Assembly (NCBI GenBank): GCA_033439265.1
Contig: JAVTVX010000010.1
Location: forward strand, 30,288,900-30,352,899
Length of the DNA stretch: 64,000 nucleotides
Direction: 5' to 3'
Origin: Dillenia suffruticosa
Lineage: Eukaryota > Streptophyta > Magnoliopsida > Dilleniales > Dilleniaceae
The notes below the pieces were generated by a model. That model saw nothing but the letters and a program-made list of their open reading frames with translations. It did no database searches and was not told where the DNA came from. Position 1 is the stretch's first letter, and the number at the start of each line of letters is the position of its first letter. Below are positions 27,000-62,230 of this stretch, one piece after another. The position numbers and the translations under genes are program-made.

Positions 27000-27002
27000 A
27001 TT

Positions 27003-35369: not shown

Positions 35370-36045
35370 AATACTCAAATTTTTATGGATAATTTGTATT
35401 AAAATTTTTAAATTTTATCTCGATATTTTATTAAATTTTCTATATTAAGATCTCGCTTCTCTTAATTGGTGCATTTTTGTGTTTTCGTTATATATATTCA
35501 AACCACCTTAAATGATACTCTCTCATTTTATCCACAATTGAACTCACTCATAATGTAGTATATATATTTTCATTTCTAATTCTATATATATTTTTTAATT
35601 TTATCATACATCCATTTAAATATTTTCATTTTAATTTCAACTATTTTATACTTTTATTATTGTTTAATGGTCTAATACTAGGTGCCGTATGATAATAAAG
35701 GTCTTACTATAATTTTATAAAACTTTCTCTTTAACTGCAATGGTATCGTGTGATCATAAAAAACTCTAAATACATTTCTTTACTTCATTTAAGCGGTTTA
35801 GATCTTATAATTGCACCTCATCTATATTGTCATAGTTTTGAATAATGGATTCAAAATATCTAAAACATTCAGTTTTTGATATATTTTATTCTTTTAATTT
35901 AATCATTTTTTTATCATTCTGATAACTGTCACTAAAAATATATTTTATATACTCAATTTTTGACTGATTTTGTTTAAATTATCTAAATTCTAATGTATCT
36001 CTTTATAACTTCAAATTAATACTAATACATTCTTTATTTTTTTAA
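35370..36045 (-). pseudogene. RTE-type LINE, C-terminal reverse transcriptase part
   Basis: In reverse complement this shows the C-terminal end of the RTE-clade ORF as seen in plant LINEs: RDTLEF, KIEYIKYIFSDSYQND, ECFRYFESIIQNYDNIDE (near 35835-35885), a KGKFY-like block and MKIFKWMYDKIKK (near 35630), with many stops. It continues the LINE part that ends at about 49486; the two belong to one element separated by later insertions. Confidence 0.75.
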
Positions 36046-36884
36046 ATATAACCTAGAGAGGGGGTGAATGTGTTGAACGGCAATTTTTGGGTTTTTTTGA
36101 AAATTTTTAGACGACGAAGGTTTGAGATTATTGTGGGTGATTACAATAATGATAAAACGTAAAGAACACACAAAGATTTTTATAGTCGTTCCACCAAATA
36201 TGGTGTACATCCATCTCCAGGCACCCTCCTAAATTTTTCAATATTATCTCAATAGTATAAACTTGATTACATATTCAAATTAGATCTTTACAGTGTTTAT
36301 CAACAAACACTAACTTCTTAACCTTACATATGGCATTTGAAACTTTCAATATAAGAGAAGAATAATGTTATAGAAAATGAGACTTCAATCATTGGATATA
36401 ACAAGGTATGAGCTTACAAGAGTTTACCCTCAAGAAAGAATGAAAGAACAAAAGAATGAAAGAACAAAAGTGTAATTTTCAAAAGCAGAGTACTTCGAAC
36501 ATTCATTGGATGTGCATTTAATACGTTTATCGATCAATTTATCAATAAGTCATTTACCTTTGCTTCTTCTTCACTCTGGCATTTATAGGTGAATTGAAGA
36601 GAGAAGTTGTGGTGGTATATGAATTTGAACATTTCTCATTAATGTTTTTCACCAATCTCATTAAATGCATTTGTCTGTTGCTCTGCTTCTTCATTTTTCA
36701 TTTGCCTTTTGCCGCTTCAAACTACAAACCAATCAATTTGATTGCTTTTGCTGCACAAGTGTGGTTAGACTAAACAAACACTTAATTGGACACATAATGA
36801 CATGCTAATCTTGGTTTATTCATGTTAAATGTCCATTTATTGAAGGTTAGAAATTTTGATAAACATGTAATAAAAAATGTGCTT
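36046..36884. repeat. LTR-like repeat, left part (split by the CACTA element)
   Basis: Starts with ACCTAGAGAGGGGGTGAATG, a phrase style familiar from long plant LTRs, and lies inside the LINE. Sequence resumes after the CACTA element at 47978. It includes a short GAATGAAAGAACAAAA repeat near 36440-36470. No coding capacity seen. Confidence 0.6.
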
Positions 36885-37660
36885 CACTACAAAAAAACTT
36901 GTATTTAGCCACAAATTTTACGACGAAAATTTAAGAAATATTCGTCGCTAAATTATTTAGTGACCAATTTTTCGACAAAACAGAATTTGTCGCTAATAAC
37001 TCGTCGCAAAATTTTGCGACAAAAAATATGATATTTGTCGCCAATTAGCGACAGATTATAGTTCGTCGCAAAATTCGTCGCAAAATTCGTCGCAAACATT
37101 AGCAACAAAAACTTTTTAGTTGCAATTTTCCGACAAAATTTGAGACGAAAAATTTCGTCAGAAAAATTTCCAACAATAAAATATTTGTTGCAAAAATTGT
37201 TGCACAAATTAACAACCAATATTTTTTTGTTGCAATTTTCCGACCAATTTTGCGACGAAATAGTATGTTTCAAAATTCTCTGTCGGAAAATTCGTCGGAT
37301 AAATTAGCATCAAAAAATTTTTTGTTGCAATTTTGCGACCAACACAACGACGAATATTTTTTGTCACAAATTAGCGACAAATTTTGTCATTGCAAATTTC
37401 CAACAATAGTTTTTTTGTTGCTAATATTTGCAACAAAATCTGCGACGAAATTATTTCGTCGCAATTTGCGACAAAATTTATTTGTGATATAATCTGTCGC
37501 AATTCTGCGACAAAATCGGCGACGGCTTTTGCGACGAATTTTGCAACGAAATCTTAAAAATTCAGCAACAAATTTTGTAACGAATGGTAAAATCAGCGAC
37601 GAATTTAGCGACGAATGTAGAAAATTTGCGACAAAAAAATTTAATTTGTTTAATATTTGC
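36885..37660. repeat. CACTA left terminal and subterminal repeats
   Basis: The words GCGACGAA, TTCGTCGC and TTGCGACA occur in both orientations every 20-40 bp. In En/Spm such repeats bind the TNPA protein. Frames at 36953-37273, 37250-37492 and 37387-37707 are products of the repeats. Confidence 0.85.
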
Positions 37661-37979
37661 ACCAAATTTCCATATATATCATATTCCTCCCTGATAGTCT
37701 CAACCAACCAGTTTATAAACTAAACCACCAACATCATCATCAACAAATCATCCAGGGTACCATCGAACAGCCAAGAATACGAAATTTATGCAGTCTCTAC
37801 TCATTCAAATAACTGACAATCTAATAGTATGAATGAAATAATAATTATAAAAACACTACCATCATCATGAAATAATATTAAACAGTACTAAATAAGTTAC
37901 AGAATATCGAATTTGTAAAAGTATAAATGAAATTTTAATGAGAAGTCTAATCAAATATAAACGTGAAATAAAAATTGTT

Positions 37980-40148
37980 TCAAGAAACATTATCACCATC
38001 ATCGTCACCATCACCATTATCGTCACCGCCACCATCACCATCACCATCACCATCACCAAATATGTCATAATCATCATCACCATCATTTGGAGGAGATAGA
38101 AAAGGGGAAATCGAACTTGAAGCGGAGACTAGCTGAAGATGCTGCATTATAAGCTTCTGTTGTGCGCGAAACTCTTCAAATTCATTGTCTCTTCGTTGTT
38201 GTTCAACGCGCATGGCTTGAAGTTCATTGTCTCTTCGCTGCTGTCTACACGCATGACTTGAAGTTCATTGTCTTTTTGTGCTAACAGCTCCTTCATGTGG
38301 CTCATCTCTTGGTTCATTTGCATTAATTCTGCTCTTACTGGTGTCTGGCCGGAAGAATTTAGACCACTCAGTCTGCAAGTTCTACTCAACGAGCCCATCC
38401 CAAGTACTGTTCCCTTCTTTGCTCCACCAGTTGCCTCGAGCCATAAAACCATATCATTAACAGATGGCTCAGACGTTGCAGCATCATCACTACCATTGGA
38501 ATTTCTAAGTAGAAGCTAGTCATATTTCTCCTGCATTATCGTATAAAAAATTAGAAGAAAAATAAAATAACAATATACTAAAATATCCAACGAAAGAAAT
38601 AGAAGTGTCAATTAATAGTTGAACAATGTAATAAAAAATCTAACAAATAAAATCAGAATACAAAATTGTATTTCTCATTAAGCGATTGACAGTAAGCAAT
38701 AAGACACAAAAATTATCTTTGTCAATCAAATATTATAAATTTAATACACTTATGGAATTCAAATTACACATACTTATATTTATATATTTAGTTGCTTAAT
38801 CCATTAAAATGATATTTAGATAATGAGGAGTGTTGTAATTGAAATTAAAATTCGACTACTATTACGAGTTTAAAACTATAACAGATCGAATAAAGGAAAA
38901 AATTATACTATACGTGACATAATGAACCAACCATTTGGAATTGACGTAACAAATTTGATATTATGTATTTTCTAATTTTATTTTATAATGAAATATATAT
39001 ATATATATATATGAATTTGAAATGAAAAGTTCAATTTAAGTATTTGAGAAATTATTGGAATAGACAAATCTATTAAATTCTTATTATAATGTTGTGATGA
39101 TAAATTGAGCATAATATGTTCAAATAAAAGTTTTTATAAAACAATTTAAAATTTTGAAATTATATACCATAACCGTTCTAGCTCTCTCCCCACTCCAGGT
39201 CTTGTCTTTTTTTCTGAAAAATCCATGCAAAAGTCTCTCTAAATGATGGCGGTGATCCCATTTCCTTGGTCTAAAAACAAAACACCGTTAGATGAATTAA
39301 TAAAAAAATAAATGAATTAAATTCAAAAAAATATTAGTTGAACCAAATTACCATTCTAATTCTATGCTCATCAATATTGATTGAGCCTCCCGCATAAGTA
39401 GCAGATGATTCCCCAGAATTATAAGCTCGATTTATTTTATTTTGCTCACTCCATCGGCTCTCATCGGAATCCCAGAAATTTAAAATGTTGAGCCAATTTT
39501 CTTCGGTGATGCAGTGTGGCTTCTTTCGGCTCTTTTTTGCATGATTTAGTACACCTCGGATGTGATGACTGCATTTTTTTTAAATATTCTTCTTATTTCA
39601 AGCTTCTCGGTCTCATCCCAATTGAACTTTCGCTAAAAAAAACAATTTGTTATATTTAAATTATACACTGAATTTTATATTTAAACTTAGAGGCCTCATT
39701 TACCTTGAATTCTTTTCACCATAGCTCTTTGATATCATCTGGAGTACTTGTGTATGACATCGATGCTCCTGCCCAATGGTTGTTAATGATTCTATTCAGC
39801 TCGTGAATAACATACACAGAATTTGTGAATCTATCATAAAATTAGAAATAAAAAAAAAATGGTTAGTAAAAAAAATATTTAAATAAACTAATCAACTATA
39901 TAAATAAAGAAACAATTGTGATAATATTTCAAAATTTAATACTTACGAATCTTCGCAAGGGGATATCACCTCTCGCGTATCTTCCCCTTCAACGTGTGAA
40001 TCTTGCATTGAAGGTACAATTGAAGGTGCAACTGATGGAAACAGTGAAGGCAAGGCGAAGGGGCATGGGAAGGTACAGCTGAAACGGACGGTGACGCTGA
40101 AGAGTTTGGTCTTGCATTAGAAGATCGTCTATGTCCTCCACGTTGAAA
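37980..40148 (-). pseudogene. TNPA-like / plant transposase (Ptta, En/Spm type) gene relic
   Basis: Exons with fitting borders can be followed on the minus strand: about 39947-40148, 39704-39830 (INNHWAGASMSYTSTPDD), 39352-39626 (FNWDETEKLEIRRIF; HAKKSRKKPH; TYAGGSINIDEHRIRM), 39168-39270 (RPRKWDHRHHLERLLHGF) and 37980-38530 (VLWLEATGGAKKGTVLGMGS). This order matches plant CACTA second genes, whose product binds the subterminal repeats. The last exon ends in a coiled coil and an Asp/Gly-rich tail. Defects: TGA at 39716-39718, a frameshift in the A-run near 39577, TAG at 38516-38518 and a frameshift near 38210-38250. The first exon does not join cleanly in frame. Confidence 0.75.
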
Positions 40149-40444
40149 CTGTAACAAGAGTTTTTTCTTGCAAGCAATGAATATTGCATGATTATAAAAA
40201 ATATAATAGAGTATATGAAAAAACATACCATATTTAAATTGTCGTCCGAAATGATTTATAAAAAAAGAAAACATATTAGCAAATAATATTTCGAAAATGA
40301 AACATGAGGCACTAAATATAACATACAAATTGAGAAACGTAATATGCAAATCTAAATATATTTTCACATGAAAACAGTAAAATAAAATTTCATATGATCT
40401 TAGATAATTTTAATAAATCTTAAAAAAACAATACTTACCGACGA

Positions 40445-43400
40445 TCAAAAATCAAAGTCATTATTGTCATCATCATCCTCATTATCAGATTCTTCAACAT
40501 CAAATTCATCCTCATCTTCATCCTCATCTTCATCATCTGTCTCCAAATCAGGTTCTTCATCGCCAGACTCATGAATTTCGTTTTGATCCACATCTATCAT
40601 TACTCCATGTGGATCTCGTAATGTTGGAATAATATATTCCTCAATCTGAAATGTATTGGCAACTTCCATTTGTTGATATGCCATGTCTTCCCAACGTTCT
40701 TCAATTTTCTTTGGTGCTTTCGTTTCACAAACAGCCCACCAATCAATTTTGTCACGTTTCAAACTAGGATATGAAGCATAATACACTTGAATCGCTTGTT
40801 GTGCCAATACGAATGGTTCATATCTTTTATAAAATTTTTTATAATTTATATCAACCAATTTAAACTTTGGATGCACATTCATCCCTTTTACGGGATCAAA
40901 CCATTGGCACATAAATAAAACGACTCGCAACTCTGCTCCAGTGTACTCAACTTCTATAATTTCATCCAACAAACTATAAAACTCATCTTTTACACCTCCA
41001 TCGTTGGATGACTGAACACAAACACCACTATTCATAGTAGCTTTTCTGGTTCCATATTCTTGAGTGTGAAAATTATACCCGTTTATAAAATACGATGGCC
41101 AAGTTCACACCGTCGAATTTGGACCCCATGACAGATTAAGTAACAATTCTTGTTCAACTTGATCTTGATTACATTGAACCTGAAGTAAAATAAATGTGTT
41201 ATTTTTTTAATAATCAAATAGAAATAAAATTTAAAATTCGTAAAACTAACATATGTTTTGAACCATGCTGCAAAATCTTCATCGCACACACGATTGAACT
41301 CATGCATCGATAGTTCAGACCGTGAATGTTGAAAAATCTTACGATTAAAGAAAACAATTTATGTCAACAATTTTATCAAAAAAAAGAACACATTTTTTAT
41401 ATTTGAGAAAAAAGGACTTACTCGAAATATGGCGTAACTTCTGGACAGTTCAGTAAAATATATGTATGGGCTGCCCGCCATTCTTTCGCAGTTAAATATC
41501 TAACCTTACATGACCCACTTGGTCGACCGAGATAGTTGAAAATAGAGAGTGATTTTAAATTAGGATTAACAGGACCCTTATCATTTCTACCCGCGTGCCG
41601 TCTCTTACACTGGACATGAGGCTCGAAATAATATGAAACAAAAGTTGTCACTTCCTCCGCAATGTATGCATTAACAATAGATGCTTCAACCCGTGACTTA
41701 TTTTTCACTTTTCTCTTCAAATGATATAAAAATCTAATTGATATGGAATAAAAAGTGTATCAGAAAATGATATATAATAAATTTAGTACATTGACATGCA
41801 CTATAAATATTATTATGATGAGAATGTGCAAAAGTTACCTTTCAAATGGATACATCTATCATATTGGATGGGACCTGCAACTCTGGCCTCATAAGGTAAG
41901 TGAACCAAAATGTGTTCCATGGAATCAAAAAATGATGGAGGAAAAATCCTTTCTAAATTACATAAAATGATAGGGATATCTTTATCTAATTTCGCCACTT
42001 GTGATTCCTTTAATACTGTCGAGCAAATATCATGCAGGAAAATACTTAACTCTGTAAGGACGGCCCATACAAAATCTGGTAATAGTTCCTTAAAAGCAAT
42101 CAGAATCAATCTTTCCATAAATATGTGACAATCATGACTTTTCAAACCAATCAACTTGCATTCTTTCATATCGACACATCTCCCAAGATTTGAGGCATAA
42201 CCATCAGGAAATCTAAGGGATTTCAACCATTCACAAACTTTCCATATCTGATCCTTATTTATTGTATAAATTGTCTTTGGTTTTGGTCCCTTACTACTTC
42301 CATCCGCATCAAGTGTAGGCCGATTACAATGAAGCCGCATATCTTTTCTCGCATTCAAGTTATCTTTCGTTTTTTCAGAGACATCCATCAATATATTAAT
42401 CAGATTATCGAAAACATTTTTCTCGATATGCATCAAATCGAGATTATGATAAATCAGATGGGTCTTCCAATATGGTAAATCCCAAAATATACTCCGTTTG
42501 GTCCATTTATGCACACTTCCATATCCGTACGTTATACCATGTGGGTCTTCAATCGCAGATGGAAATTGAGACACTCGCTCCCAAATTTGTTGACCTGTTA
42601 ATCTCAACGGAAGAGGTGTTTTTTCAAATTTATTTTTCATAAATTCTTCTTTATTTCTTCTAAATTTATGATTTTGTAGCAAAAATTGTCTATGATAATC
42701 AAAATAACTCGCCTTCTTACCATATTTCAATCTGAATGACTTAGATCTCTCCATACATATTGGACATCCTAAAACCCCAGCAGTACTCCATCCCGATAGC
42801 ATGCCATAAGCTGGGAAGTCATTTATCGTCCAAAGAAGAATTGCCTTCATTACAAACATCTGATCAGTGTTAACATCATACGTAAGAACACCGTCATCCC
42901 ATAACTGTTTTAACTCCGCAATCAATGGTCGCATATAAACATCTATCAACTTCTTCGGATTTTGCGGGCCCGGTATAATCAATGTCAAAAACATATAGGG
43001 TGTTTTTATACACATACCCGGAGGAAAATTATAAGGAGTTAATATCACTGGCCAACATGAATAAGTTTTCCCCGATTTTCCAAATGGAGCAAAGCCATCA
43101 GCACAAAGACCTAACCTAATGTTTCGAGTCTCTCTTGCAAATTCAGGATATGTCATATCAAAATTTTTCCACACCTCTGTATCCGAAGGATGACACATTA
43201 ACCCTTTCTCTGTTTGATGATTTGCATGCCAAGTCATATATTCAGCAGTAGCTTTCGATGCATAAAGTCTTTGCAATCTAGGAGTCAAGGGAAAATAAAA
43301 CATTTGCTTGAATGGTTTACGTCGCTCAGTACGACCTGCTGTCCTAGTACTCTTGTACCTACTTTGGTTACAGAATTTACAAAATTGTACATTTTCATCA

Positions 43401-44192
43401 GCTCCCTAAAACAACTTGCAACCATCTCTGCATACATCAATTCTTTCCACCGGAAGGCCCAAGTCATTCACCAACTTTTTCATACTATAAAAGTCATTCG
43501 GCATTATATGATCACGAGGTAATACTTCTCCCATTACTTGAACAATATCATTGAAGCAATTCTCAGACAAATTATGCTATGCCTTAACATTTAACATTCT
43601 AGCCGTTAATGACAATTTAGTGTGGGTGTCACAACCAACCCATAACGGTTCATCTGCAGCTCTCAAGATTTCTTGAAATTTGTTAGACAAATAATTCTCA
43701 AACATTCTCATCGACACATGTTGCTTCTACCCCCTCCAATGGAGATGCATAACTTGTAGGTACATCTTGATTTGTTGGTACAGAACTAGAACTTGCATAG
43801 TTTGTTTGGGGAAAAAAATTTTGACCCGCTGCATCAAATACCATCTGCTGATATGGATTTAACTGATCATAACAATTGTTATCCCCTCTACTTGAATAAT
43901 CCAAATTTCGCACATACTCTTCATCAGATATAAACGGTTCACCATGACAAGTCCAATTGTAGTAATTTAAAATAAAACCAAATCTACAAAAATGTTCCCT
44001 AACTTTATCACATACATGAAATTTGTCATTACCACACTTTCTACACGGACACCTTAACTTATTTCCATCCATAAACTCAACTTTACTAGTAGCGAAATTC
44101 AAGAATTGTTCCACCCCACAAATAAACTCATCAGTTAAACTACGACAATCAGGTAAATTCTTATTATACATCCAATTTCTTTCGTTTTGCAT
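40445..44192 (-). pseudogene. TNP2-like CACTA transposase gene relic
   Basis: TNP2 (TNPD) is the catalytic transposase that cuts at CACTA ends. Start MQNERNWMYNKNLPDC at 44192 opens a transposase-associated zinc domain (44192-43850, CPCRKCGN). The catalytic Transposase_21 region (43303-42400; CADGFAPFGKSGKTYSCWP, GWSTAGVLGCPIC) and a DUF4218-type region (42380-41840) follow in one exon. Then come exons 41422-41733, 41251-41337 and 40445-41179, the last with a DUF4216-type domain and an acidic tail. The first intron (41734-41838) joins in phase. Defects: one extra T near 43700, TAG at 43577-43579 and 43406-43408, a loss of about 4 bases near 41856, TGA at 41105-41107, and a phase clash between exons 2 and 3. 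Confidence 0.93.
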
Positions 44193-45679
44193 TGTCGCTG
44201 TTTAAAAAAATAAATATTATAAAATATTAATAAATTAATTATTAACAAACTATATATTATACTGAAAAAATAACATTAATAAGAAATAAAGAACATCTAA
44301 TAACAAAACATTTTAAAATTATTTAACATATTTTCAGAAAATTTAACAAATATAAAAACATTGAGTCGGAAAAAATAACAAAATAATTTATAACTATTGC
44401 ATTCGCGAATTCACAACATACATACATTGAAACTAGGAATAAGGGATATAAAACAAAGAAAATAAAATAAAATATACGAAAAAAAATATATACCTCGACC
44501 GCTTGAAGACAATAATTTTTCCCCTCTAATTGAACAACACGTCCAATCAACGCAAACGCATCTGCAATGCAAAACCATTAATGTTATTTAGAATTAATCT
44601 AATATTAAAATATATTATATAAGATTAACAATATATATTAACTATATATAGCATTATATGTATTATAAATTTGAAACATAATCACTCAATAGATGCAACA
44701 AACCATGCTTACTCCTCACCACATCTAGGTAGAGATGTGGTGCCTCACTTCTAGACTACGCTCTAGCAGCCCTTATCAACATTTTTCCACATTCAGGACC
44801 TAATACAATGTATCATTAAGAAAGGAACATGGCAATTAATTTTTTATATTGATCTCCCATTATATTGATAAAATTTTTTAAACTGATTGTGTTAAATCAA
44901 GATGGGCATTACATAAAAATGTTTCAAAAATTGACATATTTTCTCACCTCTTGCTCAGTTGTAAAATCGTTATCATACAATTGAAGAACCACAAATGCAC
45001 ACCAGTATTTTACAACACTATCAAACATAATATAGTAGAATTCTACCAAGTTAATACATACAATCGCAAATGAACTCTACTCTTATGTTGAATAAAAACT
45101 TGCTTGCTATACTCTTCAAAACTTCTCATTTGTGTGTTAACAAATGCATACACTATCAAGCAAAATATAGCATAATAAAATTAACAAATGCATGGATCTC
45201 AGTTGGGGGAGGCGCTGCGGCGCCTCCCCCTCTGGTCACATATTTTTTTCAACTAAATTAGAAAAAATTTAGTGGTAAATGTAGGATTTTATAAATAAAA
45301 AAATTAAATTTCTTTCTGCAAGAGATTTATAATTATTATTATATTGATAATTTTTTATATTAGAAATTCATACCTATGTTTAACTAAATTGACACCAATT
45401 TTCTAAAATCGGGACTTTGGTACTAAAGTATTTCCGATACCTAAAATTTTTACATGTGGTATAATGTGTTTAAGTATAATTTGGTATTACAAAAATAATT
45501 TTGAGACATGCTATGAGTTTTATAAATGAACACATAATGTTTCCTTTTTTCAAAAAAAAAAAAATATATGTAATTGGGTGTTTGCAGGATGGCTATGAAA
45601 TGTGCAGCTAATGCAACAAAGGCAACAGCAACATGCAATGGCAATGATGGCTCCAACCCCTCAAACAATGATGGGCTCT
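44193..45679. other. CACTA region upstream of the TNP2 gene
   Basis: AT-rich, no coding signal; presumably 5' leader and promoter side of TNP2. A single hairpin unit GGGGGAGGCGCTGCGGCGCC (from 45206), like those in the array further right, stands alone here. Confidence 0.5.
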
Positions 45680-46256
45680 GCCTCCCCCGGTCGGCCCCGC
45701 CTGCGAAGATGCGGGCGGGGCCATCACGTCCCCAGATCCGGCCTCTATGGCCGGATCTCAACGGGGGGAGGCACTGCGGCGCCTCCCCCACTGTCGAAAG
45801 AAACCGGCCCCGCCTGCGAAGATGCGGGCGGGGCCATCCCGTCCCATATCCGGCCTCTGTGGCCGGATCTCAGCGGGGGGAGGCACTGCGCGCCTCCCCC
45901 GCTGTTCAAAGAAACCCGGGGGAGGGGCGCTGCCCCTCCCCCGGTCGGCCCTGCCTGCGAAAATGCAGGCGGGGCCATCCCGTCCCAGATCCGGCCTCTG
46001 TGGTCGGATCTCAGCGGGGGGAGGCGCTGCGGCGCCTCCCCCGCTGTTCAAAGAAACCCGGGGGAGGGGCACTGCCCCTCCCCCGGTCGGCCCCGCCTGC
46101 GAAGATGCGGGCGGGGCCATCCTGTCCCAGATCCGGCCTCTGTGGCCGGATCTCAGCGGGGGGAGGCGCTGCGGCGCCTCCCCCGCTGTTGAAAGCAACC
46201 TAGGGGAGGGGCGCTGCCCTTCCCCCGCCAAGATCCGGTGGCAATGCCGCCGGATC

Positions 46257-46260
<4 letters not shown>
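45680..46260. repeat. GC-rich tandem array of hairpin units
   Basis: Four units share CTGCGAAGATGCGGGCGGGG-type starts at 45701, 45814, 45955 and 46097 (spacing 113, 141 and 142 bp). Each contains two dyads: GATCCGGCCTCTGTGGCCGG with its partner ATC, and GGGGGAGGCGCTGCGGCGCC with its partner TCCCCC. It contrasts sharply with the AT-rich surroundings. Open frames up to 209 codons on both strands come from the repeat and are not genes. Confidence 0.88.

Positions 46261-46292
<32 letters not shown>
46255..46292. repeat. (GA)n microsatellite
   Basis: A run of GA pairs directly after the GC-rich array. Confidence 0.95.
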
Positions 46293-46295
<3 letters not shown>

Positions 46296-46419
46296 TACCT
46301 CGTTGAAGCCGTGATTCAGAGGGAGACGACCGCGTAGAAGAGAGGGAGAGGAGGAAGAGAGGGACGGGAAAGTGGGGGAAGAGAGGGAGAGGAAAATTGG
46401 GTGGGAAGCATTAAAAAAT

Positions 46420-47977
46420 TTTTGCAACGAAATCAGCGACGAAACGATGTTCGTCGTTGAAATTAGCGACGAAACGGTTTTCGTCGCTGAAATCAGCGAC
46501 GAATATCCTTTTTCGTCGCTGATTCAGCGACGAAGATCGCGTTCGTTGCTGAGATCAGCGATGAACATCGCGTTCGTCGCTGAAATCATGACCTTTTTTG
46601 GTTATTTTAAAGTTTTTTTTTTTAATTAATTTTATACATATCTACGGAATGAAAAATATGCGCAAAGATCAAATTTATGATATGATATTATTATTTTTTC
46701 ATCTAATATCTTTATATAATTTTTTATTTATTTTAATTACTAACTATCTACTTAATTAATTACTATTACTAACTAACTAACTAATTACTCTGTCTTAGTT
46801 GATTGCCTTTTACTTTTGGCATCCTTGCCACGTATTTCGGCTCCAATTGCATGAGCTTTGAGTTCCCTTTCTTGTTTTTAGGCAAAGTGCATTAAGCATA
46901 TCAATGTACATTCATGAGGGGCAAATTGTACAAATATAGAGGAAATGCATGAACAATTATGCATAAATCAACACTAGCAAATCAACACTAGCAACGCTTT
47001 CGGCGGTTTCATTTAACTATTACAATATTTAATTATTAAAATGTGCACTTTAATTTAATAATATTTATATTTGATTAGGAAAAATGTCATGTCAAATTTA
47101 AACATTTTTAAATTTTTATTAAATATAGATAATGAAGTAGAAAATTCACTAATAGAAAACAAATTTTTTGCGACGGAATAATCCATAACTGAAAATCCCT
47201 TTTCGATCGTTCAAAGGCATCAATGAACGATTTTTTTAATCACGAACCATGTTTCGTCGCACATATCAGGGACGAATGTGGTATTTTGTTGTTTCATTTG
47301 TGGCGAAATTTTAAATTTCAGCAACAAATATTAATTTTGTCGCTGCAATCAGCAACCAAATTCCTAGTTATCGCTGAAATCTACGACAAAAAAATTGTTC
47401 GTCGCTGACTCTGCGACGAAACATTTGTTCGTGGCTAAATCTGCAACGAAAAGGTCTTTTCGTTGCGATTTCAGCGACGAAATCTCTGCGCGTCGCTGAT
47501 TTTAGCGACGAACAACTTATTCGTGGCTGAAATCTGCGACGAATACTTTGCGTCGCTAAAATCAGCGATGAAACTCGTTTTCGTCACTGAAATCTGTGAC
47601 GAAGTCATTCTTCGTCGCTGAATTTGCGACGAAAAAGTGTTCTGTCGCAGATGTTGGAATGAAAACTAATGTCGTCACTGATTTCAGCGACGAAACATCT
47701 GTTCGTCGCCAATTTCAGCGACGAAATATCTTCTCGTTGTTGAAATGCGCGACGAAATTCGTTTTTGTCGCTGAAATTTGCGACGAAATTCGTTTTCGTC
47801 GCAAATTCAGCGACGAAGAATGATTTCGTCGCTAAATTAGCTACGAAGTTTTTTTCGTTGCTAATATCGTTGGAAAATGGTTATGAAATTTATTTTCGTC
47901 GCCAAATTCGTCGCAAAATAGCAACAAAAAATGTTTGTCGCAAAGGTCCGTCGCAAAATCCGTGTTTTTTTGTAGTG
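46420..47977. repeat. CACTA right subterminal and terminal repeats
   Basis: The words TTCGTCGCTG and TCAGCGACGAA occur in alternating orientation, forming many short dyads, about every 30-35 bp at 46425-46590 and 47190-47960. The part 46600-47150 is free of them. Frames at 47596-47823 and 47765-47986 are products of the repeat. Confidence 0.88.
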
Positions 47978-49485
47978 CTTGTCTAAGGTCGACATGATCA
48001 AGTTTTTAGGTCAACTCAGTTTTGAAAATTTTTTATCCATTTAAACACAAAATATGAGTGTAGGTCGACATGTCAGTTCCTTAGCTTGACTCATTAAAGA
48101 GTGTAGGTAGACTTAAGAGTGAGCTTGGTTGACCAATGTTATGAGAAATCTAATTGGCAAAGACTTAGGTTGACATATGTGTCTCTTGAGTTGACCTGTG
48201 TAACTATAGAAGTAGATTTTCCTAGGTCTAGGTTGGCCTATGCTTTCCCTGGGTCGACTTATATAAAGTAAATTCTATTTCACCTAGACTAGGGTCGATT
48301 TATTTTTTTTTTTAAGGGTCCACCTATGCTTTGATTTTCCTTAAATCTTAGATTGTTGGTCAACATACTTGTTTTTAGGTCGGCTTTTAATAAAGGTTGG
48401 CCATTTTAATTCCTAGTGTCAACCAATTTGTTAGGATCATTCGATTTATCATTAAGTAGGTCAATAGTTCAATGTAATTTCATCAACAAGTGTCAACTCA
48501 TTAAAGATTCTAGGTCGAATGGATATTTGGTTTTTAACTCATGGTAGGTTGACATGCTCAAATGAAGGTCAACTTGTCTTTTCATTTTTGCTATGGATAG
48601 GTTGACTGGTTTTTACGTATGGGTCAACCTATAATGAGTCATCCTAGGTGTTAAGTGATTTTTGGCCAACATGGCTCTTTAATTGCTCCACCTGTGACTT
48701 CAATTGGTCAACATGTGAATAATCATAGGTCTAATTATACTTCTAGGTTGACATGTTTATCTTCTGGTCAACATATTTTGTGATTTCAATATGGCAGGTC
48801 GATATGTGTGGTATTTGAGGGGTTAACTTGTCTAAAACTTAGCTATATATGTTTCAATTCAAGCTTACGTACATGATTTACTTTAAGGGTCGACCTAAGG
48901 TCATTAAGTCTTAACTTATGTAATATATATGCTCGGGTTGACCTTTTACTTGTATTGGTCAACCTATTCTCCTATATTCGATTTGTATAGGTCGACAGTC
49001 ATGTATACGGGTCGACCTATATTGTTTTAACTTCATCTAAGTGTTCGAAGCATATTTAGATCGACATGCCTTTCTAATTGGTCAAACTTCTCTTTGAATT
49101 GCTCGACAAGCTTCTCCTGTGGGTCGAGTCATGCTCTTAAGTTGAATAGCAAGTTGGTTTATGTATGTCAGAAAATATGTTTTGATACTAAGTAATGCCC
49201 AAGTCGACCTGTGTATTCAAAGGGTCTACTTATGTATTTCCCTAGGTCAACATATTTATTCTATAGGTCGACAGGTTTGCAATAGGAATTAGAGTTATTT
49301 TGGCTTAGGTAAACCGACCTTATCTATAGGTAAATCTAAATGCTTTGATAGGTTGAATGAGCTTGATTTTCTAAGGCATAAACCTTGATGGGTCGACCTG
49401 TGTACTTAGTAGGTCAACCTAATGATCAGTACTTGATTGTCTGTGTATTTTTAGGTTGTTTAGTTTTTGTTTCTTCAAATTGTTT
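47978..49485. repeat. LTR-like repeat, right part, rich in GGTCGAC/GGTCAAC words
   Basis: Continues the repeat interrupted at 36884. The words GGTCGACCT, GGTCAACCT and AGGTTGACATG recur every 20-60 bp in both orientations with unlike spacers over about 1.4 kb. No coding capacity. I infer a solo LTR or remnant of a long-LTR element inserted in the LINE, but found no internal region or clean target duplication. Confidence 0.6.
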
Positions 49486-51544
49486 TGTATGATCCTAATC
49501 AAAACACCATTTGTACAACAGTTTCATAAAACAATATTGATAATTTTTGTTATTTTATCCATCACTATTATAAAAATAAGGGGAGTTAATGTCGAATTTT
49601 GGTGAAATTCAATTTTAATTGGGAAACTATCACTTAAACCCTTGATGTTCTTGCATTAGTAAGAGCTTTCTTATACATATCTTTAATGAAATTAATGTAT
49701 TTCAAGGAAATTCTCTCATTTATCAACACTCACTACAATATGTCTCAAGAAATCCCATCGTATATTTTTTCTAGATCAATAAATATGATAATCAAATTTC
49801 TCTTCTGTATTCTAAATGTTTCCATAAAATGTATGAGCAAGTAAATAGTTTTGGTTGTGAATTATCCTGACATGAATTCAAATTGATTTTAAAATATACT
49901 TATCTCTAATCTCAATGTATGTTCCCTTACTCTCTCCTACAATTTCATTATATGACAATAAATTTAATTTCTTTATAATTGAAACAATCTTGTATATCTA
50001 TTTTATTCTTATATAGTGATATAATTATACTCTCTTTTCATAATTGGCTCTTCTCTTGATTTGTTAGATTTTGTTAAAAAGATTAGTCAATATTCCTATT
50101 CCTATTTTATCTAATTACTTCTACATCTTAGTAAGGATGCCATTAGATCTTATGGTTTTATTATTTTTTATTTTATTTTTTTTAAAACCTCTATTTTTTC
50201 ATGAGAATAAATTTTTCGTTTAAAATCTCTATTGATAATCTCTACAGATATCGCGATATCTCTTGTACTCTAACATTAAAGACATTATCAAAATAATCTC
50301 TCCAACGCTTTTTTATATTCTTATTTTTTACAGAAATACTATTGGTCTCACTCTTAATATGTCCAATACCATTTAAGTCTTTTTCTTTCTATCATTTAGT
50401 TTGGTAATTCTGAAAATCTCTTTTTCTTCATTTTTAGCTTTTAATCTTCTATATAATTTATTATACATCACAATTTTTGATTCACGAATAATCTTTTCGA
50501 CCTCTTTTTTTGCATTCTTGTATTTTTCAAATGTATAGCTGTCTCTCTTAATTTTAAGGTTCCTATAACACTCTTATTTGATTTGTATAGTAGTTTAGAT
50601 TTCCTCATTCTACCACCATGACTCCTTATCTATTGGTGTCTGACTTCTATATAAATCAATAATATACTTACCTATATTATTAATATTACTGCATGGTTTC
50701 CGCATCATCGTTAGAGGACCAAGTAGCTACTTGAATTAATCATCTCTAAAGATTGTCACTTTTCTTCCTTTAGATCCCACGACTTAATTCTTGACTTATT
50801 CTTGACTTTATAAATTAATGATTCATCTTTTGTTTTTTGGCACACACACATTTAAAACCAAAAGTATATGTTAAGTTGCCATACTTTCCTTTGGTATAAT
50901 CTTGCGATTCCCAAACTTTTTTCTATTGCCTCTCTTGGTGAGAAAGAAACCAATTTGACTGATAGTCGACTCATTTCTATATATAATTATGTGTAATTTT
51001 TTTTTCCTGAAAAAAGTATTTACGAATATTAAATCAAATAATGTGACAAACTTTAAAATGGTATTCCTATCTCATTCCTACTATCAAAACTAAAGTTTCC
51101 ATATATGATTTCAAATCATTACTTATTTTCACCTACACATCCATTTGGATCTCCTCTAATACATAACTTTTTTTTAACTAGGTATGGTTTGAATAAATCC
51201 ATCTGATCTTCTCAAAATATTGTTTACTAAATGTATCTATACCTATTTGAACTGCATAAACACTAACTATATTAATTATATCTTCTCCACCAACTAGTTT
51301 GATAAGCAAAATTCTATCCCCTTTCTTTTTATCTTCACTACATAGTCATTATGGATAATTATTCATACTCCATTTTTAGTTTTATTCTACCGGTGTACTA
51401 AAACTTATGGGTATAAGGTTCTACTACTTTAACCATCTCCCCCACCCACTTAGTTTCTAGGAAACATAATATTAATTCTCTATCTAATTATTACTTCTCC
51501 TATCTCTTCTATCTTGCCAACTAAGAATCCTATGCTCCAAGTGG
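49486..51544 (-). pseudogene. RTE-type LINE, endonuclease and reverse transcriptase part
   Basis: In reverse complement the order is that of a plant RTE LINE. The start of the apurinic endonuclease (TTWSIGFLVGK near 51510-51540) is followed by GDRILLIKLVGGEDIINIVS (near 51260-51320) and the end of the endonuclease (STISQIGFFLTKRG near 50935-50975). Next come a SWW-NEE motif (50600-50622), the RT palm start FIDLEKIYD (near 49757-49784) and IFIIVMDKITK (near 49540). Stops and frame changes are frequent. The N-terminal side continues at 62071 and the C-terminal side at 36045. Confidence 0.82.
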
Positions 51545-51549
51545 TTATG

Positions 51550-53013
51550 TGAGGTGCGATTTTGATACCATAGATTCAGCAAAGTATAACTTAATTGAAT
51601 GTTATGTATATAGATAAGTTCAAGTATCGTTCGTACAATAATATTTTATATTACCAACTATGAATAAACCTAATCTAAGTTGGATATATTGAATCAAAAT
51701 TTTGAAAATGTTAAAAAAATTAAAATCAGAATATAAAAATCTTAAATGATGAAAAACCCTAATTTGAAAAAAATCTAAGGAAATCGATTTCATCTATTTT
51801 TAACTTTTTACATGGTCGAATCTTTTAAAACCCCCTAAGTTTATTAGCTAATGAATAATTGTTGATGTTGACAGATTTTTTCTAAAATAGATTCACCCAA
51901 TGATCAAATAATGAAATCTCTAATTTGACTAATAAAAATCTAATGGTCATGCAATTTTGATTAAATCAAATTGTATTAAGTTCTATAGAAAATCTGTATT
52001 TTTAGGTTTCTCCTAAATCCCACACGTGAAATTAATCCAATGGCTATACTCATAATCTCATTTGGATTTTATTGTTCAAACTAATCTCATATAATTATAA
52101 TATTCATACATGCATTCAATCTCAAATCATACAAAACGTAAAGTTAAATATTTTGAAACATTATAAACAGCAAGAAAATCTCATCAAATGATAATCATAT
52201 CAATAAATTTTAAAGGAAAGAAAATAAATCAAAACATATAATTAATCAAAAAAATAGAATCAATCAAGTTCTATGAAAAAAAGAAATTAGCTAGATATTG
52301 AAAAGAAAAATAAGAAAAATAAAGAAAACATTACAATCCCTTTTGCATGAGAATGGATGTGAAAATGACGTGGTATGGAGGTGTCTAGTAGGATTTATAA
52401 AGTAGTAGAGGGAGTAGTGAATGAATGAATGCTATCTGCTGTAGGGGTTGTATTTATAGTACTAAAAACCATAGAAGAATTTGGAAACTTAAAATTTTTA
52501 GAAACTTGGTATTTGACTTTGATTTGGAAACTTGATGTTGTTGTGTAATATGGATTTCTAGTTTTCTCAAAACTTAGAAACTTTCTCTTCTTTGAATTTG
52601 GAGGCTTCTAAAATTTTTAGCAAACGAATTATGAAAGTATCTCACTAATATGTGCTTAGTAGTTTTCTTTTTCAACATGGATTCCTTTTTCAGCACTGTA
52701 GTAAATTCGGCCCAATTTTCAGATATGCTCTTGCATGAATTAATCTCTAAACTCTTCACAAGATTTGTAGGCATTGAAGTTTTCTTTCCAATACAACAAA
52801 AGTCACCTCAATTGGATATCAGATCTGAAAGTTATGTCCAAAATATTAATAGCTGTCTATATAATCTGAATTTAGAAAGTAAATTTAAGATTTGTTAAAT
52901 CATTAACCACGAAATTAAATTAATATAAATTCATAAAATAAGATTTAAAACAGTTCTAAAATTCATAAATAAAATTTAAAATAATATAATTTAAGTGTAT
53001 AAAAATTATTGCA
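51550..53013 (-). repeat. Gypsy 3' LTR
   Basis: Plus-strand start TGAGGTGCGATTTTGATACC, end ATTATTGCA. Aligns with 57394-57465 and 60668-62020. Confidence 0.85.
52451..52459 (-). promoter_or_regulatory. TATA box of the gypsy 3' LTR
   Basis: In reverse complement CTATAAATA. The same box is kept in the other LTR at 61469-61477. Confidence 0.6.
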
Positions 53014-54683
53014 ATCAAATACGTCCTACACTTGAATATTTGTTTGTCCTCAATCAAGACAGAGAATAAAATGCTTTGTTTTTTTTCAAAACTAATTCAA
53101 ATTTTCCAAATCCTAAACCATGCATATGATGAATTCAAACTAGAATTACAATTAAAACAACCAATATTTTATAGTATTCAATATTAGAACAATTATTACG
53201 TACGCGATAGTCTCTTTGAAATAAACAATAACGCAAGATTTAAACACTCTCACACTTGGTTCACTCAATACAAAGAGAAATATGATAAAGAAAATAAGAT
53301 TTGATTATTCTATGTACTCAATTTAATAGGATGACATTACCATATATTTGCTAATATATTAATTCCCCACCACTCGAATATATTAAATTCATGTACCAAT
53401 CAAAATATGTTTTATTTGGTTGTAAGGGGGTTAGGGTTAAAGGTATGATAAATAAACAAAAATGTTAGGTTAAAAATAACTCATTAAAAATACTCTAATA
53501 TCAAAACATGATTTTTTTTTTTACATTAAGGCAAAAAAATATTAATTTGCACAATTTCTCATCCCAAAATATGTATAGCACTTCAATTCCGAATATCTAT
53601 GAATCACTCATCCAAATCAAAGAATATGAAATGGAACTCTACTATAAGAGTGAACAATATACAATAATAAAAAATATTTTTTTCTTTTTTCTCCAACCAG
53701 CACTTTTTTCTTTTTTTTTTTGCTGAATTTGGTTTTTTTTTTTTTTCGTAACTCAACATGATAATGCCTAAAAGTAGTGTCATATTATCAACTGTAAGTA
53801 TATTAGTGAATTCAGATTCAAAATCTGGATTTAAAAAAATAGGTCACGTGGTAAATTATATAGGTAATTTAATTAAGAAAGATTTAAACTCAAATAGGTT
53901 AATTAGAAGATATAAAATGTTAGGAATGGTATTTTTTGAAAGCCAAAAAGATATAAACTTAGGTGTTTTAATCATTTTGGTGTATAAAAATAAAAAATAT
54001 GATCTCAAAATACATTACAAAGTAAGTTCTAGAATAAACATTTCATGTGTGATATACGCTCAATAAGAAAAATGAGAGTAAGAAATTGCTTTTTAAGACT
54101 CAATTCCTCATTTAAGTAAATTTTGTGTCAAATATTACATGCCTATTTTTCGAATCAATCATAAAATGATGAATAGCTAATCTTGTATTAAATAACTATT
54201 AGTACTAATCATCTTTTATGCAGTCCAAATTCAAAACAAGTAACACATAGCGATTAGAAAGCTCAAAAAAATTTTATAGGCATGAAAAAATGAAAAAAAA
54301 ATTCAACAAAAAATCTTGAGAACCAAGTAAAAATTTAGCACTCAAATTTCTAAAATTTTTTGAAAAAATCAGCCTATATATATGCTTCCCTCACAGTTAA
54401 ATCAAGAATTGTCTTCAATGTGCAAGATAAAAATAATATAGATAATAGAGTAAAAGAGAATAGAAAACTCCCCTAAAAAATCCGATGAACCTGCAACCTT
54501 CTCTTCAGTAGCACTTTCTCTTCTTCTCGTGCAAAAAGTTTCTTATTCACCTATAAAATACTATTAAAACTTATATAAATTAAATCAACAAAGACAAGTA
54601 TTAAGTAAAATAATAAAAATATTAGGTTGTCTCCGAATAAACTCGTTTCTTTATTGTCTTTGTCTAGAAATAATCTTCTTACT
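53014..54683 (-). other. Gypsy region between protease and 3' LTR
   Basis: AT-rich, no pol motif. Near the LTR the minus strand reads GAGGACAAACAAATATTCAAG then GTGTAGGACG, the place of a decayed polypurine tract. The plus-strand frame 53758-54066 (102 codons) is AT-rich and unrecognised. Confidence 0.6.
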
Positions 54684-57387: not shown

Positions 57388-57393
57388 AAAACT

Positions 57394-57465
57394 TGATGTG
57401 CGATTTTGATATCACAGATTCTGGTAAGTATACCCTAGTCGAATGTTGTATATATACATGAGTTC
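57394..57465 (-). repeat. Gypsy 5' LTR, inner piece
   Basis: TGATGTGCGATTTTGATATC onward aligns with 51550-51625 up to the CACTA insertion at TTC. Confidence 0.85.
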
Positions 57466-57984
57466 CACTACAAAAAAACACAGTTTTAGCGACAGATTTA
57501 GCGACGAAAATTTTAGAAAAATTCGTCACTAAAAATATTAGCGACGGATTTAGCGACGAAAAATTTTTCGTCACTAATGAAGCGTCAGAAAAGTTTAGCG
57601 ACAAAAAACAGAAATCCGTCGCTAGAATAGCGACAAATTTAGCGACGAAAAATTTTCATCGCTAAATTTAGCGACGGATACAAAAAATCCGTCGCTAATT
57701 TTAGCTACGGAAATTCAAAATCCGTCGCTAAATTTAGCGACGGATCCGAGAAATCTGTCGCTAAATTATATGTTATATAATAATTTTTTTATTTATTATA
57801 TATATTTTATTTAATTATTATATTAATATTTTATTTTATTTAATTAGCGACGGATCCATGAATCCGTCGCTAAATTATATTATTTACAAATATATTTTTT
57901 ATTTATTTTATACATTTTATTTAATTATTAATATTTTATTTTTATTTAATTAGCGACGAATGCTTGATCCGTCGCTAACTTGCA

Positions 57985-58490
57985 CTCGATGACACGCCCT
58001 GCACACGCCTGCTCGCCCCACCCCTGCCAGCTCGCCCCAGCTCGCCCCACGCCCCAGCCCCAGCTCCTCAGCCAGCTCGCCCCAGCCCCAGCTCCTCAGC
58101 CTGCTCGCCCCAGCCCCAGCCCCAGCTCCTCAGCCTGCTCGCCCCAGCTCGCCCTACGCCCCAGCCCGCCCAGCCCCTGCTCGCCCAGCCCCAGCCCCTG
58201 CAGCCTGGGCGAGTAGGCAGCTCGCTCCTGCCCGCCCAGCCCCAGCCCCAGCCCCTGCAGCCTGCTCGCTCCTGCTCGCCCCTACCCCTGCACACGCGCT
58301 CGCTCCTGCCCGCCCAGCCCCAGCCCCAGCCCCTGCAGCCCCAGCCCCAGCCCTTGCAGCCTGGGCGAGCAGGCAGCTCGCTCCTGCCCGCCCAGCCAGC
58401 CCCAGCCCCAGCCCCTACAGCCTGCTCGCTCCTGCTCGCCCCTACCCCTGGCACACGCCTCGCCCCAGCCTGCTCGCCCCTGCTGCCTTG
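57985..58490. repeat. C-rich array of CTCGCCCCAGCCCCAG units
   Basis: CTCGCCCCAGCCCCAGC and GCTCGCTCCTGCCCGCCCAG alternate for 500 bp, almost free of A and T. Open frames on both strands (up to 141 codons) come from the repeat. The small CACTA element at 13663 has a weaker GC-rich core (ACCCGCCCCGCCGGAGCCC) in the same relative place. Confidence 0.88.
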
Positions 58491-58639
58491 CAAAAATTCC
58501 CAGAAAAAACCCTCAAAATACCTTCAGCTCGGTTCGAACACCTGCGCAAGAGTGAAATGGTACCCAACCACCAAACCACATTTTACCTTTAGTCATACTT
58601 CTATTTTATTTTTACTTATTATCTAATTCTAAATATTAA

Positions 58640-59700
58640 TTAAAGAAATAAAAGTTTATATCAAATAATAAAATGCTAATTAAAATAAACTAATAAATTA
58701 ATTAAAAAATAAAAAATATTATTCTTTAAAAAGATTTAAAAAATAAAATAAGAAACTATTTAAAAAATAAAAAAATATTATTCTGTAAAAAATAAAAATA
58801 AAAAAGAAAAAAAATAAAATGCTAATTTAAAATATTAAAAAATAATAAATATGATTATTTAATATAAATTAATAAAATAACAAAATAACAAAATAAAATA
58901 AAATATTAAATGTTATTATTTAAAAAAATAAAAAATATTATTATTTAAAAATCAAAAAAACATTTTAAAAATAAAATGATAATTTAAAATATTAAAAAAT
59001 AATAAATACGATTATTTAATATAAATTAATAAAATAACAAAAGAAAATAAAATATTAAATGTTAATTTTAAAAAAATTAAGCTTAGCGACGGATTGTTGA
59101 ATCCGTCGCTAAATCTACGACGAATTTTTAGATCCGTCGCTAACTTAGCGACGGATTTCAATATCCGTCGCTAAATTTAGCGACGGATTTCGGAATTTGT
59201 CACTAAATTTAGCGACGGATTCTAATTCGTCGCTAAATCCGTCGCTAAATAGTAAAATATTTAAAAAATTAAAAAATATTATTATTTAAAAATTAAAAAT
59301 ATTAAAAAAATAAAATGATAATTTAAAATATTATAAAATAATAAATATGATTATTTAATATAAATTAATAAAATAACAAAAGAATATAAAATATTAAATG
59401 TTAATTAAAAAAAAATTAAGTTTAGCGACGGATCGTTGAATCCGTCGCTAAAGCAGCGACGAATGTTTAGATCCGTCGCTAAATCAGCGACAGATTTCTT
59501 AATTCGTCGCTAAATTTAGCGACAGATTTCTAATTTGTCGCTAAATCCGTCGCTAAATAATAAAGTATTAAAAAAATAATAATTCTAGTTTTAAAAAATG
59601 AAAATATAAAATAATAAAATTAAATGCTTATTTAAGATATTATTAAATATTAAATATGATTAGTTAATATAAATTAATAAAATAAAAGAATAATAAAATA
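58640..59700. repeat. AT-rich repeats interleaved with inverted GCGACGGA blocks
   Basis: A phrase AAATGATAATTTAAAATATT with ATAAATATGATTATTTAATA recurs three times (about 58845, 58985, 59315). Between the copies lie hairpin blocks such as AGCGACGGATTGTTGAATCC with its partner GTCGCT (59085-59115). Confidence 0.8.
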
Positions 59701-60667
59701 AAATAAATGGATTACCGTTTATCAGTTGTTATCCATCTCACTGTCGCCATCCTCCGAACAATTGAATGTATTATATATTGTGTTTCTTACTGATGCCAAT
59801 AACGAATGAATATGATCAACTGAACTTTCATAAACAATTGAACTATATAAGAGAATCGAATGGATGTAGAAGACAAAAACATGAATGGTGAAATCGACAG
59901 CTGCGACTAATTGAAAATTATTTGTTATAGATTGATTGAATTATTTATTGTTAAAATTATCAAATTGATGAGAATTGTAATATTTAATATGTATTTAATT
60001 CGATTTTGTTATTTAGAATATGTTAAAAAGAGAGATACGGTTAAAAATATTTCATAATAGAGTATAGAAGAAATTTTGTTCAGAAATTATTCATGAATTT
60101 TGATATTCCGATAATAAATTAGCTACGAATTTAGCCACGAATATTTTATTTGTGGCTAATTAGCGACGAATTTTGTCACGAATATTTTTTTGTGGCTAAT
60201 TAGTAACGAAATTTGCCACGAATTTTGGAGTTTGTTACTAAATTTTGTGACAAATATTTTTACCGTGACTAATTAGCGACGAAAAATTTTTGTAACTAAT
60301 TAGTGATGAAATTTGTGACGAAATATTTTCGTCGCTAAATTTAGCGACGGATAAGAGTATTCGTGGCAAAATTTAGCCACGAAAATATTATTCGTCACTA
60401 ATTAACGACGAATTTTGCAACGAAAAATTTTTCGTCACCAATTAGCGACGGATTTAGCGACAAAAATTTTTTCATCCCCAATTAGCAACAAATTTAGTCA
60501 CGAATAATCTATCCGTCGGAAATTTAGCCACGAATAATTTTTCGTCGCTAATTTCGTAGCAAATTAGCGAGAAAAAAAAATTTCGTCTCTAAATCCGTCG
60601 CAAAATAGTAACGAAATTTTTTCATCGCTAAATGCCGTCGCCAAAACCGTGTTTTTTTGTAGTGTTC

Positions 60668-62065
60668 AAGTATCATTTCAACAAAGATATTTTTTATTAC
60701 CATATGAATATATCTAATTTAAGTTAGACAAATTGAATCAAGATTTTGAAGATATTAAAAAAAACTAAAATCAGAATATAAAAATTCTAGATAATGAAAA
60801 ACCATAATTTGATGAAATCCCTAAAATATCAATTTCATTTATTTTTAACCTTTTATATTGTAGAATCTTTCAAAACTCCCCTAAGTTTATTGGTTAATGA
60901 ATAATTATTGATGATAACATATTTTCTTAAAATATATACACCCAATAGTTATATAATGAAATCTCTAATTTGACTATTCAAAATTCAATGCTTATACAAT
61001 TTAGATTAAATTAAACTGTATTAAGTTCCATAGAAAATATGTATTTTAGAGTTTCACCTAAATCCCTATACATGAACTTAATCTAATTGTCATACTCATA
61101 ATTTTATATGGATTTTATTATTCAGGCTAATCTCATATAATTATATTGGTCATGCATGTATTCAATCTCGAATCATACAAAACGTAGGGTTTAACATTTT
61201 GAAACATTATGAGCAATAATAAAATATAATCAAATAATAATCATATCAATAAATTTTAAGGGAAATAAAATAGAATCAAGTCATATAATTAGCTAGATAT
61301 TGAAAAGAAAAACGAGAAAAATAAAGAAAATAGTACAACCATTTTTGCATGAGAATGGATATAGAAATCACGTGGTATGGAGGCGGCTACTAGAGTTTGT
61401 AAAGTAACGGAGGGAGTAGTGAATGACGGAACTTGTGAATGAATGAATGCTGTCCGCCCTAGGGGGTGTATTTATAGGGCTAAAAACCCTAAAAAAATTT
61501 AAAAACTTAAAACTTTTTGAAAACTTAGTGTTTGACTTTAATTTAGAAACTTATTGTTGTAATGCAATAAGGATCTTTAGTTTTCCTAAAACTTGAAAAC
61601 TTCGTCTTCTTTGAATTTGGAAACTTTTGAAATTTTTAACAATTGAATTCTGAAAGTGTCTCACTAGTATGCACTTAGTAGTTTCTTTTTCAACATGGAT
61701 TCTTTTTCAAGACTGCAGCAATGTCGGCCCAATTTTCGGATACGTTAATGCCTAAATCAGCCACCGGACACTTTATAAGATTTGTAACTCTTGAAGTTTT
61801 TTTTGTAACGCAACAAGAATTATCTTAATTGGACGTCAGAATAGAAAGTTATGTCAAAAATACTAAAACTGTTTGTGCAGTCCGAATTTAGAAAGTAAAT
61901 CCAATATTTCCTAAATTATTAATCACGAAATTAAATCAGTGTAAAATCATAAAATAAACTTTAAAACGGTTTTAAAATTCATAAGTCTAAAATATTATAA
62001 TTCAAGTGTATAAAAATTATAGGATATACCGGATCTCATCGGTCCGAAATAGTGGTTTGTTATCA
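60668..62065 (-). repeat. Gypsy 5' LTR, outer piece
   Basis: Aligns with 51625-53009 up to about 62020. A TATA box (minus strand, 61469-61477) is kept. The remaining 45 bp up to the target duplication have no counterpart. Confidence 0.8.
61469..61477 (-). promoter_or_regulatory. TATA box of the gypsy 5' LTR
   Basis: In reverse complement CTATAAATA, preceded by GGGTTTTTAGCC. It lies where a promoter would drive the gag frame. Confidence 0.6.
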
Positions 62066-62070
62066 TTACA

Positions 62071-62230
62071 TGAATTTTATCTTTCTGGATTAACTTCTTT
62101 GCATGTACACGTTCACATAAATGCGGTAACCCTTACCTACTTGACACTACATTTAGGGGGTGATGTGGCATATCGCTTTTGGAGGACGGCCTAAAGACCC
62201 TTGCTAATTTGTCACTGCACTCATGTTTTG
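62071..62230 (-). pseudogene. RTE-type LINE, N-terminal part
   Basis: In reverse complement the sequence GGTAAGGGTTACCGCATTTA leads into AGAAAGATAAAATTCA. With the other side of the gypsy insertion (51549 downward) it reads KIHVTTWSIG in one frame, as at the start of the endonuclease of plant RTE LINEs. The right-hand limit is uncertain. Confidence 0.65.

Follow-up and report, generated by a model that had tools for sequence, protein, structure and literature searches.

The 64 kb of Dillenia suffruticosa DNA analysed here (contig JAVTVX010000010.1, G000:C10:30288900-30352899; hereafter the window) contain a nest of transposable elements that spans about 27 kb. A dead, nearly full-length long interspersed nuclear element (LINE) occupies the minus strand between 62376 and 35045 and is split into three pieces by two insertions, designated A and B, each of which carries a CACTA element. 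The nest comprises three layers and five insertions, and target duplications are recognisable at all five. Those of the two CACTA elements (CTT and TTC) and the 9-mer of the LINE are exact. Related copies were sought in the genome (596 Mb, 37 contigs), where L numbers denote loci. From left to right, the features are:

35036..35044, no strand: left copy of the LINE target-site duplication ATAACACTA, a sequence with only two occurrences in the 64 kb, both strands considered
35045..36041, minus: LINE piece 3, with the C-terminal part of the reverse transcriptase (RT; residues 728-922 of the reference frame L068), the 3' region and a (TTG)n-type tail
36042..49520, minus: insert B, a single (probable solo) long terminal repeat (LTR), between target copies TTTTT (36037-36041, within piece 3) and GTTTC (49521-49525, within piece 2); the same ends occur elsewhere in the genome
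36885..47977, minus: CACTA1, 11.1 kb, with a tnp2-type transposase; target duplication CTT (36882-36884, 47978-47980)
40445..44201, minus: coding frames of CACTA1, with Transpos_assoc (43698-44201), Transposase_21 and DUF4218 (41813-43405) and DUF4216 (40445-41104)
49521..51549, minus: LINE piece 2, covering the endonuclease and the bulk of the RT (L068 residues 27-706) but lacking the FADD codons
51550..62065, minus: insert A including CACTA2, a degraded LTR retrotransposon of the Ty3/gypsy type, as judged from its LTR pair, the domains of its relatives and the 5-bp target TTATG/TTACA
51550..53017, minus: 3' LTR of insert A, serving also as empty site of CACTA2; inner edge approximate, set by eye
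57394..62065, minus: 5' LTR of insert A, in two parts (57394-57465 and 60665-62065) on either side of CACTA2
57466..60664, no strand: CACTA2, 3.2 kb; target duplication TTC (57463-57465, 60665-60667)
62066..62376, minus: LINE piece 1, the 5' end with a leader of about 90 nt and the start of the open reading frame (ORF; MRDKYRKF... to KIHV); matches in 13 of 29 related loci
62377..62385, no strand: right copy of ATAACACTA, the second of its two occurrences

The three LINE pieces (62376-62066, 51549-49521 and 36041-35045) are colinear, do not overlap and amount to 3327 bp after subtraction of two target copies. The two outer pieces stem from one insertion, because ATAACACTA flanks the exact LINE ends and is found nowhere else in the window. 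For comparison, when 20-base stretches were paired at random, nine or more bases were shared in 47 of 20,000 pairs. The 5' end reads AACTCCGTCATTG, as it does in relatives, and the tail is of the (TTG)n type (TTATTGTTGTTG). Between position 62376 and the ATG of MRDKYRKF at 62288 lies a leader of 88 nt without an upstream gag-like ORF1. The ORF starts with MRDKYRKF...SQRR where the reference reads MGDKRYKT...PQRR. Many stops, frame shifts and the lack of FADD codons mark the LINE as dead. The target copies of insert A also lie within the LINE, at 62066-62070 in piece 1 and at 51545-51549 in piece 2.

The reference frame L068 is 969 residues long inside its locus and matches the Pfam families Exo_endo_phos (7.2e-9, residues 28-168) and RVT_1 (8.2e-33, residues 553-790). 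When the pieces were searched separately at the protein level, the middle piece aligned with residues 27-706 and the 3' piece with residues 728-922, while residues 707-727 (QDEIPWCILFADDIVLVDETI, FADD at 716-719) were covered by neither. The DNA comparison yielded nt 80-2120 and nt 2176-3034 of L068 for the same two pieces. The 62-kb piece corresponds to nt 503-691 of L069, just upstream, given that L068 nt 80 equals L069 nt 730. Alignment of the edges suggests that some 40 nt, the FADD codons among them, were lost beside the second break, as estimated by eye. A preliminary description made from the window alone had proposed three minus-strand LINE pieces in this very order, and the searches bear this out: the pieces fall on adjacent, non-overlapping parts of one frame and the 9-bp duplication closes the outer ends. 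The extent given there, 35370-62230, lies inside the LINE and stops short of both of its ends at 35045 and 62376. The proposed join KIHV/TTWSIG across the gypsy-type element holds, both edges forming one frame with one 5-bp target copy when joined by hand. The other break had been placed near FADD. It does lie in the RT region, but the FADD codons themselves are gone.

When the 49-51 kb piece was used to search the genome, scoring covered the top 40 of 2438 candidates and gave 43 matches including the window; within this set, the best relatives of the middle piece are 72-74% identical over nearly the full length. The related loci L010-L038, 29 in all, were compared by the best high-scoring segment pair (HSP) for each piece (L009 is the window itself and was excluded), homology to piece 1 being sought in the flanks of loci found by the middle piece. 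The 49-51 kb and 35-36 kb homologies occur in the same order and on the same strand in 28 of the 29 loci. Thirteen loci have homology to the 62-kb piece upstream of the middle one; L034, one of these, is devoid of the 3' piece, and all three pieces are present in 12. In relatives, the pieces practically abut. In L018, homology to piece 1 extends to 1503 and homology to the middle piece starts at 1501; in L014 the best HSP for piece 1 falls in a duplicated 5' stretch, and the second HSP abuts. A strict (TTG)n tail pattern was passed by 14 relatives and failed by 15. Repeats outside both LINE ends were seen by eye in three of ten relatives displayed, namely L014 (AATTTCACTTTAAA), L023 (AATTAGATATGG, six bases past its tail) and L026 (with one mismatch), and they sit at, or a few bases from, the corresponding 5' end and tail of the (TTG)n type.

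Six frames from LINE relatives were scanned against Pfam (two each from L020 and L024, one each from L013 and L016). One L020 frame matched Exo_endo_phos_2 below the family's cut-off (0.00015) and the other RVT_1 (1e-9); L013 matched RVT_1 (2.7e-7) and, under the cut-off, DUF1722. One L024 frame gave only a match to LZ3wCH under its cut-off (0.034), and neither the other L024 frame nor that of L016 matched any Pfam family. A 152-residue frame of L024 found 150 scored family members, among which nine open frames of 1005 residues and one of 1031 residues occur. The reference L068 comes from this set. Such long open frames (e.g., at C20:18005173) raise the possibility of recent activity in a related lineage, while the copy in the window is old.

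The window LINE fits the RTE clade by its (TTG)n tail, found in place of poly(A) in the window copy itself, by a single endonuclease-RT frame, seen in L068 as an apurinic/apyrimidinic endonuclease (APE)-type domain followed by the RT, and by its short leader. Plant LINEs are assigned to the L1 and RTE clades in the relevant part of PMC11288735. According to PMC3747384, every RTE-clade LINE in flowering plants terminates in (TTG)n or (TTGATG)n, while poly(A) forms the 3' end of almost all L1-clade members. Among 39 PDB sequences compared, LINE-1 and R2 matched best; the others included further RTs and AP endonucleases.

Insert A begins with TG, ends with CA and is flanked by TTATG and TTACA. 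Self-comparison of the window revealed its LTR pair (51618-53009 and 60664-62020, 77.9% identical). The short part of the 5' LTR to the left of CACTA2 corresponds to nt 1-72 of the other LTR and the long part to nt 70-1460, the three-base overlap being the CACTA target TTC. The LINE is continuous across the site of insert A in all six relatives displayed. Its internal part gave 57 genome matches including the window. Four frames from gypsy-type relatives were scanned, and the matches to Retrotrans_gag (1.4e-11, L066) and RT_RNaseH (2e-19, L067) are typical of Ty3/gypsy elements. Two further L066 frames were without Pfam match, and no protease match came from the four frames. Of the frames of insert A in the window itself, one matched no Pfam family and one gave matches only under the cut-offs, to RVP_2 (0.0031) and, slightly better, to the unrelated Methylase_S (0.0013). 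The Kimura two-parameter distance between the LTRs is 0.2085 over 1408 sites. With substitution rates of 1.3e-8 or 6.5e-9 per site and year, insert A would be 8 or 16 million years old, respectively, an age that depends on these general rates.

Without CACTA1 and one target copy, insert B measures 2383 bp and forms a 2.4-kb LTR. Its halves to the left and right of CACTA1 have many relatives each. Edges were counted by eye in 22 loci, several of which overlap in place (the window's own L039 and L051 were excluded). Matches at the left edge start at 36037-36044 in 13 loci, and those at the right edge end at 49518-49520 in 14. Beyond the ends, most of the relatives displayed (11 per side) differ. 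To the left of the LTR end, L048 reads CTGATACCAATTG / CTGATACCA, the reverse of the sequence TGGTATCAG, which resembles a primer-binding site (PBS), and variants occur in L053 and L054. The right end runs into a pyrimidine-rich stretch in six of 11 relatives (L041, L043, L046, L047, L049 and L052); that of L046, CAATCTCCCTCTTTTGATGATGACAAAACTC, is the reverse of a stretch resembling a polypurine tract (PPT). A PBS-like flank on the left and a PPT-like flank on the right are what is expected for LTRs at opposite ends of one element. On contig C4, two B-type copies 6.4 kb apart (L052 and L053) represent one full element, the one relative with two LTRs that was examined; AATAA precedes one of its ends, and the other is followed by ATAAA or AATAA (a one-base ambiguity). 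In its 3.2-kb internal stretch (L063), no Pfam domain was detected in the three frames tested. At the second break, GAAAC is present once and is followed by sequence of the 3' piece in four of seven relatives displayed (L012, L018, L020 and L068; e.g., GATGAAACTAGAGAAG in L020). In the window, one edge of this break ends with GAAAC and the other begins with AAAAATAAAGAA, as expected of a 5-bp duplication in which two bases have changed. Since its LTR stands alone in the window, insert B is probably a solo LTR.

CACTA1 and CACTA2 share the ends CACTACAAAAAAAC and CCGTGTTTTTTTGTAGTG (...GTAGTG). The transposase of CACTA1 matches Transposase_21 with 2.6e-80. Scanning of one frame of CACTA2 (57979-58626, plus strand) gave no Pfam match, and no transposase was found there. 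Empty sites are available for both elements: at one place (L045/L062) the two halves of the LTR of insert B lie within a few bases of each other without CACTA1, and the other LTR of insert A serves as the empty site for CACTA2. Both CACTA insertions lie inside LTRs, though only a portion of the nest consists of LTRs. This CACTA family might prefer LTR sequence as its target, which is considered very unlikely; two events are far too few as proof. Two GC-rich arrays lie inside these elements, a tandem array with units of about 142 bp in CACTA1 (45670-46227) and proline/alanine-coding tandem repeats, open in more than one plus-strand frame, in CACTA2 (57979-58626).

With regard to the inserted elements, the preliminary description had the limits of insert A (51550-62065) exactly right. 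For insert B it gave 36046-49485; the true limits are 36042-49520, which shifts the right boundary by 35 bases. What it called LTR-like repeats is indeed an LTR insertion, but consists of a single 2.4-kb LTR. Its claim of a CACTA element in each insert agrees with the matching ends and 3-bp duplications of both, and the order it had deduced, with the LINE preceding the gypsy and LTR insertions and these preceding the CACTA elements, follows from the nesting.

In principle, three LINE pieces in such proximity could also be remnants of two or three separate insertions that came to lie close to each other by chance. The abundance of the family, with 2438 first-look candidates of which 40 were scored, speaks for this explanation, but on one frame the pieces adjoin without overlap, the breaks fall where the inserted elements end, the 9-bp duplication is present at the outer ends only, and the middle and 3' homologies are continuous in 28 of 29 relatives. 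We consider separate insertions extremely improbable. The same applies to an assembly chimera in place of true nesting: assemblies are well known to go wrong at nested repeats, yet all five insertions show recognisable target duplications, three of them (CTT, TTC and the 9-mer) exact, and the chance of such an artefact is minute. It is less far-fetched, though still unlikely, that insert B is a complete small non-autonomous element and not a solo LTR. No second LTR of the B type appeared in the self-comparison of the window, and the internal stretch of L063 is free of Pfam domains in the frames tested. Against this stand the PBS-like flank in L048 with its variants in L053 and L054, the PPT-like flank in six of 11 relatives, and the C4 pair, two copies that make up a full element whose flanking 5-bp repeats match approximately.

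Several observations weigh against the reading of one LINE split by two LTR elements and must be set beside the evidence for it. No match to the 62-kb piece was found in 16 of the 29 related loci, and outer repeats were not seen by eye in seven of the ten relatives displayed. Pieces 2 and 3 of the window LINE, read through in three frames each, gave no Pfam match, and the domain calls for the LINE thus rest on its relatives. The 5-bp duplications of insert A (TTATG/TTACA) and insert B (GTTTC/TTTTT) agree in three of five bases each and were called by position in comparison with relatives. GAAAC is missing at the second break in three of seven relatives displayed, and the left end of insert B is TT in the window and TG in relatives. 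The RTE label is provisional and is taken from tail, frame and leader. Even so, we state with high confidence that a LINE was followed by two LTR elements and these by one CACTA element each. The pieces themselves, their order and boundaries, the repeats and the CACTA empty sites are directly visible.

How the nest arose can be outlined as follows, the integration mechanisms being inferred. An RTE-type LINE of about 3.3 kb would have entered the minus strand near full-length by target-primed reverse transcription, duplicating 9 bp of its target, ATAACACTA. Later, the Ty3/gypsy-type element A would have integrated between the KIHV and TTWSIG codons near the start of the LINE ORF, and a second LTR element, B, independently in the part of the RT that directly follows the FADD motif, with 5 bp of target duplicated in either case. 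Recombination between the two LTRs of B presumably left the single LTR. By cut-and-paste, CACTA1 would then have moved into the LTR of B (3-bp duplication CTT) and CACTA2 into the 5' LTR of A (TTC). Because of the nesting, the LINE is the oldest component, followed by inserts A and B and then by the CACTA element in each; the nesting ranks the layers, not A against B or CACTA1 against CACTA2. The result is a clean transposon stratigraphy of five insertions in three layers, in which relative ages can be checked against LTR divergence and a dead LINE is still recognisable across 27 kb. No sign of function was seen in the nest.

Outside the nest, the window contains a direct repeat of 381 bp (3272-3652 and 10663-11043, 89% identical), possibly a younger LTR pair, a further direct repeat (21819-22673 and 27000-27783, 72.5% identical over 859 aligned columns), possibly an old LTR pair, and a diverged tandem array with repeat units of around 42 bp (30183-30824).

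All components of the nest have known counterparts. The LINE shares one APE-type endonuclease and RT frame, a length of about 3.3 kb, a very short leader and the (TTG)n tail with the RTE-clade (BovB-like) LINEs of plants, from which the window copy, a putative member of the clade, differs in being dead and interrupted. Insert A resembles Ty3/gypsy retrotransposons in its LTR pair, TG...CA ends and 5-bp target, with Retrotrans_gag and RT_RNaseH in its relatives, whereas the window copy has decayed and its own frames show no match above the Pfam cut-offs. Both CACTA elements correspond to the CACTA (En/Spm) group in their CACTA...TAGTG ends, 3-bp duplications and subterminal repeats, and CACTA1 also in its tnp2-type transposase and associated domains; no transposase was found in the single frame of CACTA2 that was scanned. 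The nest is a well-preserved example of an ordinary plant type; its components and nesting pattern are all usual and involve no new mechanism. For wheat chromosome 3B, the pertinent section of PMC4290129 gives 30,199 nested insertions in up to eight layers. As in these wheat clusters, elements lie within elements and are ordered by nesting, and the nest described here, with its three layers, five insertions and duplications that are all recognisable, does not differ from them in kind.

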